Shown here: one piece after another, positions 32,583 to 38,592 of the stretch | How positions within the stretch are numbered: the first letter of the stretch is position 1 | How the letters are laid out: each line of letters opens with the position of its first letter | NCBI GenBank assembly: GCA_019639075.1 | Contig: JAHBSO010000002.1 | Location: forward strand, 124,001 to 188,000 | DNA length: 64,000 nucleotides | Direction: 5' to 3' | Source of the DNA: Actinomycetota bacterium | GTDB lineage: Bacteria > Actinomycetota > Acidimicrobiia > Acidimicrobiales > Iamiaceae | Made by a program: the position numbers and the translations under genes | The notes under the pieces: model-generated | Told to the model about the DNA's origin: nothing | Databases searched by the model: none | What the model saw: the letters and a program-made list of their open reading frames with translations, nothing else

Positions 32583-32910
32583 AGCGGTTTCGACTGCGCT
32601 CGCTGGCGCTCGCTCCGCTCAACCAACGGAAGCGGTTTCGACTGCGCTCGCTGGCGCTCGCTCCGCTCAACCAACAGAAGCGGGGTCCTCGATCGAGCGC
32701 AGCCCCTTCTGTTCCTCGAGCGAGCGAAGCGAGTCGAAAGGCGAACGAGAGGTCGAGCGCAGCGAGGCCACTCAACCTGTTCCTTGAGCGAGCGAAGCGA
32801 GTCGAAAGGCGAAAGAGAGGTCGAGCGCAGCGAGGCCGCTCAACCTGTTCCTTGAGCGAGCGAAGCGAGTCGAAAGGCGAAAGAGAGGTCGAGCGCAGCG
32901 AGGCCGCTCA
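32583..32910. repeat. Amplified repeat array: 2 x 48 bp then 3 x 68 bp
   Basis: Two 48-bp units at 32583-32630 and 32631-32678 (each with TTTCGACTGCGCTCGCTGGC) are followed by three 68-bp units at 32709-32776, 32777-32844 and 32845-32910 (each with TTGAGCGAGCGAAGCGAGTC or its one-base variant, and GGTCGAGCGCAGCGAGGCC). The last unit includes the stop codon of the TetR gene. This accounts for the whole 344-bp gap 32564-32907, which otherwise shows no gene. Confidence 0.5.
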
Positions 32911-33498
32911 GGCGACGGGGACCGACGCGCCCTGACCGGCGAGGACGGTGTCGACGACGCGGTCCACGAGGGCGGCCACGGCATCGTCGTCGGCGACGAA
33001 GCCCATGAGCACCGCCTCGGCCACGCCGTGCACCGCGCACCACATGACCGTGCCGACCTCGGTCGGGTCGCCGGGCGCGAGCAGACCCTCGTCGATCGCC
33101 TGCGCCGTCGCCGCGTTGGCCAGCTCGAAGGCTCGGGTCGCCGGCGGGAACGAGTCGGCGTCGGCCAGGGCCGACGGGGGGTAGAGGAAGAGGAGGGAGA
33201 ACAGCGCGGGCGACGATCGGGCGTGGTCGACGTAGGCCCGGCTGTAGCCCCGGATGCGGGCGAGCGGGTCGGTGTCGGCGTCGGTCACCGCCTCGAACCG
33301 CTCGACCAGGCGGCCGAAGTGCTCCTCGGCGACCGCGGCCACGAGGTCCTGCTTGTTCTCGACGTAGAGGTACAGCGCCGGTGCGGTGACCCCGAGCTCG
33401 CGGGCGACCGCCCGCAGCGACAACCGTTCGGCGCCGTCCCGTTCCAGCTGGGCCCGCGCGGTGGCCAGCACCAACTCGCGCGACAGCGGGGCGCTCAC
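32908..33498 (-). CDS. TetR-family regulator
   Basis: A 196-residue repressor with the N-terminal helix-turn-helix LSLRAVARELGVTAPALYLY followed by VENKQDLV, and a C-terminal ligand domain resembling TetR_C_33/WHG types (SRAYVDHARSSPALFSLLFLYPP). The start is GTG 33498, overlapping the stop of the first carotenoid oxygenase gene (GTGA). It is therefore the third gene of an operon with two carotenoid oxygenases and probably senses their substrate or product. A candidate operator is at 36630-36642 before the first gene. Confidence 0.5.
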   Translation of the reverse strand: MSAPLSRELVLATARAQLERDGAERLSLRAVARELGVTAPALYLYVENKQDLVAAVAEEHFGRLVERFEAVTDADTDPLARIRGYSRAYVDHARSSPALFSLLFLYPPSALADADSFPPATRAFELANAATAQAIDEGLLAPGDPTEVGTVMWCAVHGVAEAVLMGFVADDDAVAALVDRVVDTVLAGQGASVPVA

Positions 33499-35189
33499 GT
33501 GAACCGGTCCCCGTACATCTCCTTCGCCACCTTGGCGGTGCGGACCATCGCGACCGCGTGCCGTGGGAGGTCCCGGATCGCGCCCCACACGTCGGCCCCG
33601 AGCGACACCGAGTAGTCCGGCCGGCGGCGACCCGACGACGGAGGCATCCAGCACGAGTGGAGGAGCAGCGCCGGACGGAAGCCCTTGGCGGTCGCCCGGG
33701 CGATCGGCCCACGGGCCAGGTCGGCGGCATCGAACAGCTGCACCTCCTTGTCGCCGTCCCGGTGGACGAGGACGAGGACGTACCCGTCGTCGGGATCGGT
33801 GGCGCCCCGCCGGGGGACGAACTGGGGCGGGCTCGGGAACGCACCGCCGTCGTAGGTCCAGCGGTCGACGATCTCCATGACGTCGAGGTCGAAGCGCACG
33901 AGCGACGCCGGGATCGGCTCGGTCGGAAGATCCTTCGGGTGGATCAGGCAGTTGAGGTCGGCGTCGCCGTAGAGCTTCCACCATGCCTCGGGGACGAGCT
34001 CCGGGTCGAAGCCGACCCCGGCGAACCAGAGCTGTCGGCTGCCGGCGCGGGCCGCGGCCGAGGAGCGGTCCCGGGTGGCGAGCACCGCACCCCAGAAGTC
34101 GTCGTCCCACGCCAGCTTCGACTCGAGGACCTCGCCGGACCCGGCGTCGATGCGGTACCGGCCCACCACACCGGGCTGCACCCCGAGGGCGATCAGGCCC
34201 TCGTACTCGGCCGGGATGGGCGGCGCGTCGCCGTGGGCCGCGGCGCCGGCCTCGAGCTTGATCATGAGGTCGGCGAGCGGGATGTGCTCCAGGTACGCGG
34301 TGATCGTGCCGTCGGCGTCGTCCTCGTCGACCGACAGGTGTCCGGTCGGCATGGGGATCGTCACGCTGGTCACCGGCACCGGCGACCCGGGCGGCGTGGC
34401 CTCCAGGTCGGCCTTGGCCACGATGCTCAGGTGGGTGACGTCGTCGTTCGGCTTCGTGCGCTCGCCGATCCCCACGACCTCGGGACCGACCGCGAACGGC
34501 AGGTCGCTGAAGACGAGGTGCGAGCGGGTGGCCTTGATGTCGTGGATGGACTCGAACGGGGCCAGGCCGGTGAGCGGCCACCGCTGCACCGGACCGTCGA
34601 GACCCCAGCGGGCGACGAACGCCGTCGGCCCCGACGCGCTCGGCACCGGGGTGGAGTTCACGAAGTAGAGGGCCCGCTCCTCGTGGTCGGCGGCCGGGTG
34701 GGCGGCGACCGCGATCATCGGCTCCAGCACGCCGGGCATGGCCTGGAACCACTCGCCGTTGCTGCCGACCGGGGTGATGACGTCGAGGGTGACCGGGTCG
34801 ACCTCGACGGGCCGACCGGCGTCGTAGCCGACGAACAGCCGACCGTCGATGGGCTCGACGTTGGTGTTCGCGAGGTTGGTGACGCCGAACGGTGACAGCT
34901 CGGCGAACGCCAGGTTCCGGAACAGGAACGGCAGCTTCTCCCGGATGCGCAGCACCCGGGTGCGCACCCGCCGCTGGCGCACGGGCACGCGGCCACCGCG
35001 GTCGGGGGTGAGCTCGATGCGGCAGAGGAGGCCCGGCGCGTCGAACCAGTGTCCCTTCGGCTCGCGCTTGTCGGGTCCGACGATGAAGACCGATCCCTCG
35101 ACGTCGTCGGGCCAGGCCCCCTCCACCACCAGCAGGTGCTGGAACCGGTCGCCGCCACCGCGGAAGAGGTTGCCGGTGAGCGTCGCCAT
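33495..35189 (-). CDS. Carotenoid oxygenase family protein (A)
   Basis: A 564-residue member of the RPE65/CCO family of non-heme iron dioxygenases, which cleave carotenoids, apocarotenoids or stilbenes. Likely iron-binding histidines lie in VAAHPAADHE, FESIHDIKAT, an intermediate strand and LLLHSCWMP near the C-terminus. It is longer than its neighbour and divergent from it, closer to lignostilbene/retinal pigment-type members with a long N-terminal part. The ATG at 35189 overlaps the stop of the upstream oxygenase by one base (TGATG). No carotenoid biosynthesis genes are nearby, so an imported or endogenous polyene is acted upon. Confidence 0.5.
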   Translation of the reverse strand: MATLTGNLFRGGGDRFQHLLVVEGAWPDDVEGSVFIVGPDKREPKGHWFDAPGLLCRIELTPDRGGRVPVRQRRVRTRVLRIREKLPFLFRNLAFAELSPFGVTNLANTNVEPIDGRLFVGYDAGRPVEVDPVTLDVITPVGSNGEWFQAMPGVLEPMIAVAAHPAADHEERALYFVNSTPVPSASGPTAFVARWGLDGPVQRWPLTGLAPFESIHDIKATRSHLVFSDLPFAVGPEVVGIGERTKPNDDVTHLSIVAKADLEATPPGSPVPVTSVTIPMPTGHLSVDEDDADGTITAYLEHIPLADLMIKLEAGAAAHGDAPPIPAEYEGLIALGVQPGVVGRYRIDAGSGEVLESKLAWDDDFWGAVLATRDRSSAAARAGSRQLWFAGVGFDPELVPEAWWKLYGDADLNCLIHPKDLPTEPIPASLVRFDLDVMEIVDRWTYDGGAFPSPPQFVPRRGATDPDDGYVLVLVHRDGDKEVQLFDAADLARGPIARATAKGFRPALLLHSCWMPPSSGRRRPDYSVSLGADVWGAIRDLPRHAVAMVRTAKVAKEMYGDRFT

Positions 35190-36598
35190 CAGGCCGGGAG
35201 CCAGTTGCCGTGGAAGCCCGACGGGACCCGTCTCGGCAGGTGGACCCGGGCGACCTCCTCGAGCGCGGCCGCGTCGACCACCACGAGGTCCGAGCGGTCC
35301 TCGACCCGGTTCCACACGAAGTTGAGGAGCCATCCGGCGTCCTCGCCGTCGCGGGTCGGATCGGGCGCGAACGACACCTCGCCGGACACGGCGCCCGGAC
35401 CGTACGAGTAGACCTCCGAGGTCCCGGCGAACAGGTCGTGCTTCACGAACCCGTCGAAGAAGACCTCGTCGTCCTCCCAACGCTCGGCCTTCGCGACGTA
35501 GCCGTAGCGGGCGTCGGCCCCGGCGACGTCGTCGTTGACCCGGGGGAAGTCGCCGGCCCGGTCGTCGAGCTGCTGCTCGGTGACCGCGCCGGTGGCGAGG
35601 TCGATCCGCCAGCGGTGCAGGACCGGGGGCCGGGCCCGCACGGGCTCCTCGTCGCCGAAGGTCGTGTTGAGCCGATCGGTGCGGCACCCGTCGACGACCA
35701 CCGCGCCCCCGTCGTCGAACGCGTTGAGGACGTGGAACATCCAGAACGGCTCCACCTCGAACCACCGCGGCGGGGCGGTGAGGTCGGACCGGTCGAGCAC
35801 GCCGATGCGGGCGCCGTGCTCGGGCTCCCACCGGATGCCCGCGCCGCCCTCGAGCATGGTCTTCACGTCGAACACCGCCGGGAGGTCGAACAGCACGATG
35901 TGGTCGGCCGAGACGGCGAAGTCGTGCATCATCACCGGCCCGGGCAGGTCGACGTCGACGGACTGCACGAGCGTGCCGGCGGCGTCGGCCACGTGCACCC
36001 GCAGGAACGGCGGGAACGGGTTGTACCCGAAGAACACGAGCTCGCCGGTGACGGGATCCACCTTGGGGTGGGCGGTCATGGGACCGACCAGGGCACCGTC
36101 GAAGTCGTACTCGCCGAGCGTGGCCAGCGCGAGGTCGACCTCGGTCGGCCGCGCCGCCTCCATGAGGGCGAAGACCCGACCGGCATGACCCACGACGTGG
36201 GTGTTGGCGGTGTTCTTCATCATCCCGCCCTCGGCCACCAGCTCCGGCGACGGCACCGCGAACTCCGACAGACCGCCGTAGAGCGCCCGACCTTCCCGGC
36301 GCTCGACCCGTAACGCCGCGGACTCCACCCACCGGTTCCGGTAGCGGGCGGCGCCGTCCTCGAAGGCGACCGCGTGCAACATGCCGTCGCCGTCGAACAG
36401 GTGGTAGCGGCCGAGCGGCGCGAACGCCGGATTCGGCCCGTTGCGCAGGTAGCTGCCCGTGAGCGCGTCCGGCAGCTCGCCGGTGACGGGGAGCTCCGCG
36501 ATGTCGAGCTCGTCGGCGACGGGCGCCCACGCACCCGAGAGGTAGGGGTCGGCGGGATCGAACGCCGGAGCGACGGAGGGCTCGTCCATGGTCGTCAT
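35189..36598 (-). CDS. Carotenoid oxygenase family protein (B)
   Basis: A 469-residue carotenoid cleavage dioxygenase. The four iron-binding histidines are visible in order: GPMTAHPKVD, VMMHDFAVS, WMFHVLNAFDD and SGFHGNWLPA at the C-terminus. The N-terminal GSYLRNGPNPAF and GDGMLHAV are hallmark family motifs. It is the first gene of a three-gene operon (oxygenase B, oxygenase A, TetR) with 1-bp and 4-bp overlaps. The start is ATG 36598, with a TetR-like palindrome 32 bp upstream. The divergent gene encodes an acyltransferase-3 protein. Cleavage position and substrate cannot be inferred. Confidence 0.5.
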   Translation of the reverse strand: MTTMDEPSVAPAFDPADPYLSGAWAPVADELDIAELPVTGELPDALTGSYLRNGPNPAFAPLGRYHLFDGDGMLHAVAFEDGAARYRNRWVESAALRVERREGRALYGGLSEFAVPSPELVAEGGMMKNTANTHVVGHAGRVFALMEAARPTEVDLALATLGEYDFDGALVGPMTAHPKVDPVTGELVFFGYNPFPPFLRVHVADAAGTLVQSVDVDLPGPVMMHDFAVSADHIVLFDLPAVFDVKTMLEGGAGIRWEPEHGARIGVLDRSDLTAPPRWFEVEPFWMFHVLNAFDDGGAVVVDGCRTDRLNTTFGDEEPVRARPPVLHRWRIDLATGAVTEQQLDDRAGDFPRVNDDVAGADARYGYVAKAERWEDDEVFFDGFVKHDLFAGTSEVYSYGPGAVSGEVSFAPDPTRDGEDAGWLLNFVWNRVEDRSDLVVVDAAALEEVARVHLPRRVPSGFHGNWLPA

Positions 36599-36629
36599 GG
36601 GCGCACCGTACCTGTTGGCGAGCGATCGG

Positions 36630-36642
36630 TAAACACCGTTCA
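36630..36642. promoter_or_regulatory. Candidate TetR operator before the carotenoid oxygenase operon
   Basis: TAAACACCGTTCA reads as TnAAC-N3-GTTnA with symmetric outer bases, the layout of many TetR sites. It lies 32 bp from the oxygenase B start, within the 89-bp divergent promoter gap, and is a natural site for autoregulation by the operon's own TetR. Confidence 0.5.
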
Positions 36643-36687
36643 GTGACTCTCGCGTCACGGGCTGTCCGATTCGGCCACGATGGTGCC

Positions 36688-38592
36688 GTGACCGCGGAGG
36701 ACCGGGGCCAGCGCATCCCCCACGCACCCGGCCTCGACGGCATCCGGGGGCTCGCCGTCGTCGCCGTGCTCGTGTACCACGCCGGTCCGGCGACCTGGCT
36801 GCCCGGCGGCTTCCTCGGCGTGTCGCTGTTCTTCACCCTGTCCGGGTACCTGATCGGCTCGCTCGTGGTGGCCGAGGTCGAGCGGACCGGCGGCATCGAC
36901 CTGGGACGGTTCTGGGCGCGCCGGGCCCGACGACTCCTGCCGGCGCTCCTCGTCGCGCTGGCCGGCAGCGCGGTCCTGGCCCGGATCATCGAGCTGTCCG
37001 ACCGCACCCAGCGGGAGCTGATCGCCGGCCTGACCTACACGTCCAACTGGATCGAGATCATCGACGGCCGCACCTACGGCGAGCTCTTCGGGGCGCCGTC
37101 ACCGGCCAGCCACCTCTGGTCGCTCGCCGTCGAGGAGCAGTTCTACCTGGTGTTCCCGCTGGCGGTCCTCGGGCTCGTCCGGCTCGTCGGCGATCGCCGG
37201 TTCCGGACCTGGCTGATCGTGGGCAGCGGCGTCGTCTACGTCGGTGGGATCGCGGTGGCCACGGCCATCAGCACGTCCGCCGCGTACTACTCGACGCCGG
37301 CCCGGGCCCCCGAGATCGCCACCGGCGTCGCGCTCGCCGCATGGACCAGGCACCCGGAACGACCGGCGGGCCGGCTCCTCGGCCTCGTGGGGCTCGCCGC
37401 GCTCGCGACGGTCGCGCTCGCCTGCGTGCGGACCCAGCTCACGACACCGTGGGTCGGCAACGGCGGGCTCGCCGTCTTCGGGCTCGTGTCGGCCGTCCTC
37501 ATCGCCGCCGCCGGCCGGCCCGGTCCGCTCGGGCGGGTGCTGTCGCCGCCGCCGCTCACGTTCCTCGGCCGCATCAGCTACGGGCTGTACCTGTACCACT
37601 GGCCGGTCGTCATCGTCCTCGACCGGCCACGGGTCCACATGGAGCCCGTGCCGCTGTTCCTCCTGCGCTCGGCCGTGTCGATCGGGGTCGCCACCGCGTC
37701 GTACCACCTCGTCGAGCAGCCGATCCGGCACGGTCGGTGGGGCGGCTCCCGACGGCCCGCCGTGGTGCTGGCCCGGAGCGGCGCGGCGATCGTCGCCACC
37801 GCGGTGTTCGTCGTCCTGGCGGTGCCGCCGGCGACCCCCACGCCCGAGGCCGCCGACGCGCCCGCGGTGATCGACCCGGGCGAGCAGACGACGGGCTCCA
37901 CCACCGCCGACGGCTCGGAGGCGGCGGGTCCCACCACGGTGGTGATCCTCGGCGACTCGGTCCCGAACTGGATGGTGCGCGACGGTGCCTCGGCGCTCGA
38001 CCCGACGGAGGTCGCCCTGATCGACGGAACCTCCGAGGGGTGCGACGGCGCGGAGGGCTCGCCGACCGGGCGGGCCAACGGCGGCGTCGTGGTGACGCTG
38101 CCCGAGGACTGCACCGGCTGGCACGACCAGTACCCGCCGGTGGTCGAGGCCGGTCCGGTGGACGTCGCGCTCCTGGTGATCGGCAGCGGCGCGGTGCTCG
38201 ACCGCAAGCTCGGCGACGACTTCTACGGGCCGTGCGACGCGACGGCGCGGGACTGGTACCTGGCGGACGTCACGGCCCGCCTCGAGTACCTCTCCGAGCA
38301 CGCCGACAAGGTCGTGCTCGCCCTCCCCGCGTGGGCCGAGGAGTGGTCGGGCTGGGTCAACCCGCCCGACCACCACGAGCGCACCGACTGCGTCCGCGCC
38401 ACGCTGAACGACGCGGTCGCCCGGGCGCGGGAGGCGGGCGCCACCAACATCGAGGTGATCGACCTCGGGGCGCACCTCTGCCCCGACGGCCCCGACGACT
38501 GCGAACCGGTGCGCGAGCGCGACGGGGTCCACATCGACCCGTCCGCCGCGCCCGAGGTGCTGACGTGGCTGATCGCCGAGGCCATCGGCTGA
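36688..38592 (+). CDS. Acyltransferase-3 with C-terminal SGNH domain (OafA-like)
   Basis: A 634-residue membrane O-acyltransferase. The N-terminal acyltransferase-3 domain (about residues 10-370, roughly ten helices) begins with APGLDGIRGLAVVAVLVYH and includes RFWARRARRLLPAL and SLAVEEQFYLVFPL. A linker rich in Thr/Ala leads to an extracytoplasmic SGNH domain with VVILGDS (Ser near 424) and the DGVHIDPSA Asp-His pair. Such two-domain proteins add acetyl groups to cell-surface polysaccharides or peptidoglycan. The start is GTG 36688; GTG 36643 is an alternative. No polysaccharide cluster is next to it. It is convergent with a thioesterase gene across a repeat. Confidence 0.5.
   Translation: MTAEDRGQRIPHAPGLDGIRGLAVVAVLVYHAGPATWLPGGFLGVSLFFTLSGYLIGSLVVAEVERTGGIDLGRFWARRARRLLPALLVALAGSAVLARIIELSDRTQRELIAGLTYTSNWIEIIDGRTYGELFGAPSPASHLWSLAVEEQFYLVFPLAVLGLVRLVGDRRFRTWLIVGSGVVYVGGIAVATAISTSAAYYSTPARAPEIATGVALAAWTRHPERPAGRLLGLVGLAALATVALACVRTQLTTPWVGNGGLAVFGLVSAVLIAAAGRPGPLGRVLSPPPLTFLGRISYGLYLYHWPVVIVLDRPRVHMEPVPLFLLRSAVSIGVATASYHLVEQPIRHGRWGGSRRPAVVLARSGAAIVATAVFVVLAVPPATPTPEAADAPAVIDPGEQTTGSTTADGSEAAGPTTVVILGDSVPNWMVRDGASALDPTEVALIDGTSEGCDGAEGSPTGRANGGVVVTLPEDCTGWHDQYPPVVEAGPVDVALLVIGSGAVLDRKLGDDFYGPCDATARDWYLADVTARLEYLSEHADKVVLALPAWAEEWSGWVNPPDHHERTDCVRATLNDAVARAREAGATNIEVIDLGAHLCPDGPDDCEPVRERDGVHIDPSAAPEVLTWLIAEAIG

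Follow-up and report, generated by a model that had tools for sequence, protein, structure and literature searches.

The CCO1, CCO2 and TetR genes described here are probably the central part of a catabolic regulon under TetR repression. The window, which is the whole 64-kb stretch of DNA within which all positions are counted, carries two genes for carotenoid-oxygenase family enzymes (CCO1 and CCO2) followed by the gene of a TetR-family regulator. The evidence consists of the operon layout, the conservation and position of the operator, the gene company in relatives and the iron ligands, all of which were read from sequence. The features are listed below.

35189-36598, minus strand: CCO1, 469 aa, PF03055; first gene of the operon
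33495-35189, minus strand: CCO2, 564 aa, divergent PF03055 member; second gene
32908-33498, minus strand: TetR-family regulator, 196 aa, GTG start, TetR_N and TetR_C_33; last gene
36630-36642, minus strand: candidate 13-bp operator, TGAACGGTGTTTA on the operon strand, of the form TRAAC-N3-GTTYA
36628-36633, minus strand: proposed -35 hexamer TTTACC; shares positions with the operator and is separated by 17 nt from the -10 box
36605-36610, minus strand: proposed -10 box TACGGT, with the CCO1 ATG 6 nt downstream

Operon layout and candidate operator

The gene overlaps given in a preliminary description of this DNA were found again, with 1 nt shared by CCO1 and CCO2 (nt 35189) and 4 nt shared by CCO2 and TetR (33495-33498). 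The TetR gene is the last gene of the operon, as had been described; the interval then assigned (33495-36642) omits the body of this gene, which reaches down to 32908. The claim of co-transcription holds for the overlaps, and from them we infer a single CCO1-CCO2-TetR message.

The regulator matches PF00440 with 41 bits (cut-off 24) and PF13305 with 47.1 bits (cut-off 26.8). Its helix-turn-helix stretch VTAPALY is present in 14 of 15 aligned TetR sequences, window included, and the remaining one has VSAPALY. This TetR is one candidate to bind the palindrome at 36630, which lies over the promoter of its own operon.

The palindrome TAAACACCGTTCA occupies 36630-36642, with the ATG of CCO1 31 nt downstream. 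Its class TRAACNNNGTTYA (TRAAC-N3-GTTYA) has one copy in the window, where 0.01 is expected from shuffles. The comparison set consists of 53 non-duplicate loci (650,648 nt) that include the window and were picked by their oxygenases alone. It contains 26 sites of this class across 20 loci, whereas 59 palindromes with permuted arms gave a mean of 0.51 and a maximum of 6 sites, and the same arms at 11 other spacings gave 0-3 sites. Ten further loci have a copy with one mismatch no more than 200 nt ahead of a module gene; as the 53 loci contain 31 one-mismatch copies in total, an individual one carries little weight. The remaining 23 of the 53 loci have no exact palindrome and no one-mismatch copy ahead of a module gene.

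The same core was counted in 12 genomes with CCO1 or CCO2, 10 of which were already known to carry a site, and 35 core sites were found against 1 for the reversed-pattern control. Of these 35, we assign 24 to promoters of CCO, TetR, substrate-binding protein, Rieske or amidohydrolase genes, and the other 11 adjoin different genes. Seventeen sites had been met previously in the fetched loci, and 7 of the 18 new ones lie in promoters of those same gene types. The 15 genomes without a CCO2 match have 4 core sites and 5 controls. No core site was found in two genomes that carry CCO1 or CCO2 (G114 and G258).

The position of the operator is also repeated. Among 10 operator-bearing CCO1 promoters, the only promoters in which the -10 spacing was examined, 8 have the operator 18-19 nt before a -10-like box and this box 6-7 nt before the start codon, and the same spacing has a frequency of 0.00175 at random positions. 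This spacing suggests that the operator covers the -35 of a leaderless transcript.

A layout that arose by chance, with neither the TetR nor the palindrome connected to the oxygenases, is extremely unlikely. TetR genes are common and one imperfect 13-bp palindrome can arise randomly, but chance does not agree with the enrichment of sites (35 against 1, and 26 against a mean of 0.51), with the absence of an excess in the CCO2-less genomes (4 against 5) or with the promoter geometry seen in 8 of 10 cases. A TetR relative also occurs in the same stretch as the CCO genes in 15 of the 53 loci, that is, in 14 of 52 when the window is set aside. The earlier proposal of TAAACACCGTTCA as an operator is therefore supported, since the motif is repeated in relatives at a fixed position over the CCO1 promoter. 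The comparative support for a candidate TetR-type operator at 36630 is strong.

Two other observations concern the motif. A second operator-like site in the window's own genome (C9:35073, TGAACACGGTTCA) is without the RSY core and was taken as chance; it overlaps the opening codons of a reading frame at a contig end (MNTVQ...), which we take to be HD-domain-like. Further sites in relatives (L124, L129, L130, L132-L136, L138, L141 and L142) have mixed neighbours.

The two oxygenases

CCO1 matches PF03055 with 457 bits and CCO2 matches it with 144 bits in two pieces (cut-off 27). The two proteins share 26.5% identity in their best aligned stretch (CCO2 residues 20-359) and are thus well diverged, as had been noted before.

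By alignment, the iron histidines of CCO1 are H177, H225, H289 and H463, conserved in 26, 27, 27 and 27 of 27 CCO1 sequences. The second-shell glutamates are E147 (26/27) and E407 (27/27), and the middle second-shell acid is D350, in whose column Asp or Glu is present in 26/27. The single odd row in this alignment is a frame-broken gene (L087).

The iron histidines of CCO2 are H164, H216, H284 and H511 by alignment, and all four are kept at every column in 31/31 CCO2 sequences (3 fragments were left out). Loss of an iron histidine, which an N-T-N motif had suggested, was ruled out, as Synechocystis ACO has the same Asn and all four ligands are present. The second shell is changed at two positions, D123 and P454 in the window. 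The first position is Asp in 31/31, which is acidic but not Glu, and the last is Ser in 24/31 and Pro in 7/31; the middle column falls within a gapped stretch of the alignment. The three second-shell acids, which are Glu in BCMO-1, are thus not all found in CCO2. A C-terminal helix is predicted at residues 530-563. The AlphaFold2 model of CCO2 (pLDDT 84.4, pTM 0.89) has a predicted propeller fold, with LsdA, the P. brassicacearum lignostilbene dioxygenase and ACO as best Foldseek matches; among the 50 matches listed, TM is 0.57-0.62 by query length and 0.66-0.72 by target length. Judged by sequence against homologs from the same class, CCO2 belongs to an undescribed clade.

The CCO1 and CCO2 genes are found together in one stretch in 15 of the 53 loci, window included, and other arrangements have them split into divergent or convergent genes. 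CCO2 also occurs without a CCO1 labelled in the fetched stretch (e.g. L044-L049 and L051-L053), where CCO1 may lie elsewhere in the genome.

These data bear on two other readings. In the first, CCO2 would be a pseudoenzyme, or a dimer partner or regulator of CCO1. The replacement of second-shell glutamates by Asp and by Ser or Pro throughout the 31 sequences is in its favour, and so is the company of CCO1 in the 15 loci; an account of C. elegans BCMO-1 describes the second-shell glutamates as holding the iron ligands through hydrogen bonds (PMC8866865). Four invariant iron histidines are unlike a decaying site, and CCO2 genes found apart from CCO1 also speak against a partner role. A plant CCD-like group is likewise without one second-shell glutamate, and the text on it assigns no activity to the group (PMC6888377). 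We regard this reading as quite unlikely.

In the second, which was the preliminary one, CCO1 and CCO2 would cut a carotenoid or apocarotenoid in succession and the TetR would sense an apocarotenoid. The best NCBIfam model of CCO1 is NF052295 (8'-apo-carotenoid 13,14-cleaving), with 346.7 bits over nearly the whole length compared with 252.3 and 220.5 bits for the lignostilbene models, and the solved structures nearest to it in sequence are those of carotenoid 9,10-dioxygenase and 9-cis-epoxycarotenoid dioxygenase. However, 346.7 bits is far under the curated cut-off of 675, and the split of the two genes in other arrangements does not imply a fixed two-step order. Sequential carotenoid cleavage is possible but doubtful. 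The terms "carotenoid" for the substrate and "apocarotenoid-sensing" for the TetR are guesses.

The proposed regulon and its substrates

The operator in relatives also precedes Liv-type ABC transporter genes (substrate-binding protein, permease and ATPase) and a Rieske/amidohydrolase operon. Liv-type permease or substrate-binding protein genes were identified by Pfam names in 8 of the 53 loci, the operator precedes a substrate-binding protein gene in 8 loci, part of which were retrieved through the motif itself, and an acyl-CoA ligase gene lies downstream of CCO1 in 6 loci. In one branch of relatives, the proposed regulon also takes in a Rieske oxygenase, an amidohydrolase, an SDR and a P450. 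The substrate-binding protein of the relatives has no match among solved structures at E 0.001.

In the window's genome (79% complete), no match was found to this substrate-binding protein, an empty result to be read with caution, and no close ortholog of the acyl-CoA ligase (best 40% identity), so import and activation are proposed for the relatives and would be conjectural for the window's organism. SQS_PSY (phytoene synthase) also has no match in this 79% complete genome, while 7 of 14 control genomes are positive. Rhodopsin (PF01036), a possible link to retinal supply, was found neither in this genome nor in any control genome, so this negative carries no weight.

The preliminary description had proposed a new small regulated pathway. 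Regulation by the candidate operator is retained, and the limit to three genes is not, as relatives add the Liv importer, the Rieske/amidohydrolase operon and the ligase. A system that takes up an external compound and catabolises it agrees better with this gene order, because the operator precedes the importer and the Rieske/amidohydrolase genes and the ligase lies downstream of CCO1. We read the system as an uptake-and-cleavage catabolic regulon of which the window would keep the three-gene core.

Repression, inducer, substrate and reaction order are those of the model that we infer for this regulon. Without inducer, a TetR dimer would occupy the 13-bp palindrome covering the -35 of the CCO1 promoter. 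The bound TetR would block the leaderless CCO1-CCO2-TetR message and hence would also limit its own gene. An inducer would free the operator from TetR, with the substrate or a product of its cleavage as the likeliest candidates. CCO1 would attack an exogenous polyene or an alkene of similar kind, cleaving a conjugated C=C bond to give carbonyl products, and CCO2, as a separate-clade iron enzyme with a changed second shell, would take either this compound or a product as its substrate. In relatives, the Liv-type importer, the acyl-CoA ligase and, in one branch, the Rieske oxygenase, amidohydrolase, SDR and P450 would together serve the import, activation and degradation of the pieces.

The substrates could instead be aromatics released when plant material or lignin decays, stilbene-like or otherwise phenylpropanoid, which we consider unlikely. 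Aromatic catabolism would agree with Liv-type import, with CoA ligation and with Rieske oxygenases, the best folds for CCO2 include two lignostilbene dioxygenases, and both oxygenases match lignostilbene models, albeit below the NF053778 cut-off of 800 bits (CCO1 252.3, CCO2 37.8). The Rieske protein of the relatives matches the solved structures of benzene and biphenyl dioxygenases. Its second match is carnitine monooxygenase and its best NCBIfam model, below cut-off, is glycine betaine monooxygenase, so the protein is no proof of aromatic chemistry. According to an account of LSD4, Lys-134 binds the phenol of the substrate (PMC8191317); this column is non-Lys in 27/27 CCO1 and 31/31 CCO2 sequences. 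The Tyr-101 column is Trp in 24/27 CCO1 sequences, and the CCO2 alignment is loose there. Non-phenolic aromatics stay compatible with these columns.

Within the catabolic regulon, a wider proposal is put forward tentatively, at somewhat less than even confidence. CCO2 and its sister group would make up an undescribed clade of iron oxygenases that have four His ligands, a second shell that has been rewired and a cleavage unlike that of characterised members. Together with CCO1, the Liv-type importer, the CoA ligase and a dedicated TetR, they would provide Acidimicrobiia-type bacteria with a complete and inducible system for the catabolism of a polyene, or a related natural product, that is scavenged.

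Significance and comparison with known systems

In our literature search, uptake and breakdown of polyenes by these actinobacteria apparently had not been treated. The regulon, if true, would give a concrete handle on uptake and breakdown of polyenes or related compounds in largely uncultured actinobacteria. With the conserved operator, the members of the regulon can be delimited in each genome, so substrates could be searched for through transporter, ligase and oxygenase together. CCO2 would offer a natural case for asking how much change the second shell of this iron site tolerates, and a sensor for the inducer might be built from the TetR.

The window resembles the mycobacterial pair JTY_0672/JTY_0673 (M. 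tuberculosis Rv0654, MtCCO), as far as this pair has been described, in having a TetR gene and an adjacently numbered oxygenase gene. The M. tuberculosis counterpart of JTY_0672 is presumably Rv0653c. The pair has one oxygenase whereas the window has two, and the likeness concerns gene layout and, for the pair, published expression. In the account of M. bovis BCG, which gives a precedent for the proposed control, the carotenoid cleavage oxygenase JTY_0673 is down by log2 -1.18 under overexpression of JTY_0672, and JTY_0672 is reported as a broad regulator that also activates, with a 21-bp logo (PMC11752888). A TetR that adjoins an oxygenase gene thus need not be dedicated to the oxygenase.

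The 8'-apo-carotenoid 13,14-cleaving dioxygenases of NF052295 are likened to CCO1 by its best model, from which it differs by its score below the cut-off. Liv/HAAT-type ABC importers occur with acyl-CoA ligases in bacterial catabolic clusters, and the relatives are similar in having the operator before importer genes and ligase genes downstream of CCO1. Unlike in such clusters generally, the importer of the relatives is coupled to carotenoid-oxygenase family enzymes, and it has no match in the window's genome. The lignostilbene dioxygenases (LsdA, LSD4 and NOV1; NF053778 and NF053780) share the fold and the four iron histidines, and provide the nearest solved folds for CCO2. They differ in Lys-134, which is missing in both CCO1 and CCO2, and in Tyr-101, which is replaced in CCO1. 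Their catabolic role is in common with the role proposed for the CCO system.

Three-gene operon and CCO1 promoter

The operon in the window consists of three genes on the reverse strand, two of which (CCO1 and CCO2) encode carotenoid-oxygenase family proteins:

35189-36598, reverse strand: CCO1, 469 aa, RPE65/PF03055 by Pfam
33495-35189, reverse strand: CCO2, 564 aa, RPE65/PF03055 by Pfam
32908-33498, reverse strand: TetR gene, 196 aa, GTG start, TetR_N and TetR_C_33 by Pfam

The gene coordinates agree with the overlaps of 1 nt (CCO1/CCO2) and 4 nt (CCO2/TetR) in the preliminary description. The oxygenases are well diverged, as also claimed there, with 26.5% identity in the best aligned stretch. 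No other PF03055 gene was found in the window's genome (2.74 Mb, 79% complete).

The palindrome TAAACACCGTTCA at 36630 is a member of the class TRAAC-N3-GTTYA, which occurs once in the window (0.01 expected) and twice in the window's whole genome. The CCO1 promoter exhibits the order TGAACGGTGTTTA, 19 nt, TACGGT, 6 nt, ATG. The hexamer 17 nt upstream of TACGGT is TTTACC, a candidate -35 that overlaps the operator. The spacing was analysed for CCO1 promoters only, in the 10 distinct loci (window included) whose operator is at most 150 nt upstream of CCO1. Eight of these show a TANNNT box that begins 18-19 nt past the operator and is separated from the start codon by 6-7 nt; L076 and L083 lack this spacing. 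At random positions, the combination of box and start at offsets of 15-24 has a frequency of 0.00175. The layout suggests a repressor site on a leaderless CCO1 promoter.

On the far side of this promoter is a divergent acyltransferase gene, whose shared intergenic region with CCO1 contains the operator:

36643-38592, forward strand: Acyl_transf_3 gene, start at GTG 36643 or 36688

Among the relatives' loci, its relative was found in L095 only. At the other end of the operon, three tandem 68-nt copies (32709-32912) lie in the gap between the Fur and TetR genes and reach into the stop codon of the latter, with two 48-nt copies (32583-32678) ahead of them. A 19-nt core (at most 3 mismatches) occurs 10 times in the window against 0.07 expected. 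This is a dispersed repeat family and possibly terminator-like.

Operator and gene company in relatives

The relatives were selected by oxygenase sequence alone. Five duplicate loci (L070, L077, L087, L096, and L098) were left out, and 53 loci including the window remained (650,648 nt). The palindrome exhibits 26 sites in 20 of these loci. In the same loci, 59 permuted-arm palindromes gave a mean of 0.51 sites (maximum 6), and the same arms at 11 other spacings gave 0-3 sites. One-mismatch copies number 31 in total; of the 33 loci that lack an exact site, 10 have such a copy no more than 200 nt ahead of a module gene, and the other 23 have neither an exact palindrome nor such an upstream copy.

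Among 12 genomes that carry CCO1 or CCO2, 10 of which were previously known to hold a site, the core TRAACRSYGTTYA has 35 sites against 1 reversed-pattern control; among 15 genomes in which CCO2 has no match, it has 4 sites against 5 controls. By our count, 24 of the 35 sites fall within the promoter of a CCO, TetR, substrate-binding protein, Rieske or amidohydrolase gene. Seventeen of the 35 were known earlier; among the 18 new ones, 7 are in promoters of these kinds, including one located 238 nt upstream of a more distant oxygenase. The earlier proposal of a regulatory site at 36630 is thus strengthened as a candidate operator by its recurrence in relatives and its fixed position before CCO1. 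Exact palindromes at L129:4734 and L132:1724 lie at the starts of reading frames with a related secreted or lipoprotein-like look (common CEPxYxVK), and are either regulon members or chance.

A TetR relative is present in 15/53 loci, and CCO1 and CCO2 occur together in 15/53 (window included in both), in the same operon, divergent or convergent. Liv-type ABC permease or substrate-binding protein genes were identified in 8/53 loci (L058, L069, L073, L088, L092, L095, L099, and L100); the transporter families are PF13458 (substrate-binding protein), PF02653 (permease), and PF00005 (ATPases). In eight loci (L073, L092, L095, L100, L126, L131, L137, and L139), a set that includes loci retrieved through the motif itself, the operator precedes the substrate-binding protein gene. 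An acyl-CoA ligase, counted if at least 55% identical to the L092 copy, which is itself the family representative, lies downstream of CCO1 in L071, L073, L075, L088, L092, and L095. CCO1 of L092 (12979-14430, equal to L087:6367-7802) spans two frames, either because the gene is broken or through an error of assembly.

A second branch holds Rieske oxygenase, amidohydrolase, SDR, and P450 genes. The operator at L140:5084 is located some 50 nt upstream of the aligned start of such an operon, and no CCO-family gene is labelled within that 10-kb stretch. A CCO2b-TetR-enoyl-CoA hydratase cluster is conserved in L047, L049, L051, and L052, from another family of the class. These four have no exact operator and a one-mismatch copy in L047 only; perhaps their operator has drifted.

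In the window's genome, the relatives' substrate-binding protein has no match and the best ligase relative reaches only 40% identity, so the window holds a core of the module.

CCO2 clade and substrate class

A 69-protein tree places all 31 CCO2 rows in a single group (100/100) at the end of a long branch. Within it, 7 rows are of the window's type and the other 24 of a sister type. CCO1 is not strictly a single group. The four iron His are kept in 31/31 CCO2. In the second shell of these proteins, Asp replaces the first Glu (31/31) and Ser or Pro replaces the last (31/31); CCO1 keeps these Glu in 26/27 and 27/27, respectively. Fragments (three of CCO2, one of CCO1) were left out of the counts, and the middle acidic position of CCO2 is ambiguous, lying in a gap-rich part of the alignment. 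In BCMO-1, such glutamates hydrogen-bond the iron His and hold them (PMC8866865). The AlphaFold2 model of CCO2 (15-sequence alignment; pLDDT 84.4, pTM 0.89) predicts a C-terminal helix. Among solved structures, the nearest in fold are LsdA, a lignostilbene dioxygenase, and ACO, which share 16-20% identity with CCO2.

CCO2 was found at E 1e-20 or better in 18/395 genomes of the class (at most three candidates scored per genome) and in 3/396 of the phylum, all of the same order; both counts include its own genome. A scan of named genomes gave 13 loci: 12 actinobacterial-labelled MAGs (Acidimicrobiales, Acidimicrobiaceae, Ilumatobacteraceae, Microthrixaceae, and unplaced) and one Woeseiaceae-labelled MAG. 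The CCO2 in the latter (L097:8001-9680, 47% identity) is of the window's type, which suggests gene transfer or misbinning.

CCO1 scores higher with the apo-carotenoid model than with the lignostilbene models, but reaches the cut-off of none of them. Lignostilbene dioxygenases bind the phenol through a Lys (PMC8191317). This Lys is found in 0/27 CCO1 and 0/31 CCO2 compared, and the Tyr-101 position is Trp in 24/27 CCO1, which makes a stilbene-like substrate less likely. Given the model preference and the changed phenol-site residues, apocarotenoid-like polyenes rank first among candidate substrates. The phytoene synthase family has no match in the window's genome, which fits an external substrate within the limits of 79% completeness.

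Comparison with known systems

The enzyme and repressor families are known. Their regulon and the CCO2 clade are apparently undescribed, as neither was found among the titles and abstract openings of a capped literature listing, with subscription journals mostly outside it. Lignostilbene dioxygenases are treated in a review of lignin-dimer pathways (PMC12997858) and Rv0654 in another review (PMC5133782). The nearest published case found is in BCG: the TetR JTY_0672 and the oxygenase JTY_0673 (PMC11752888).
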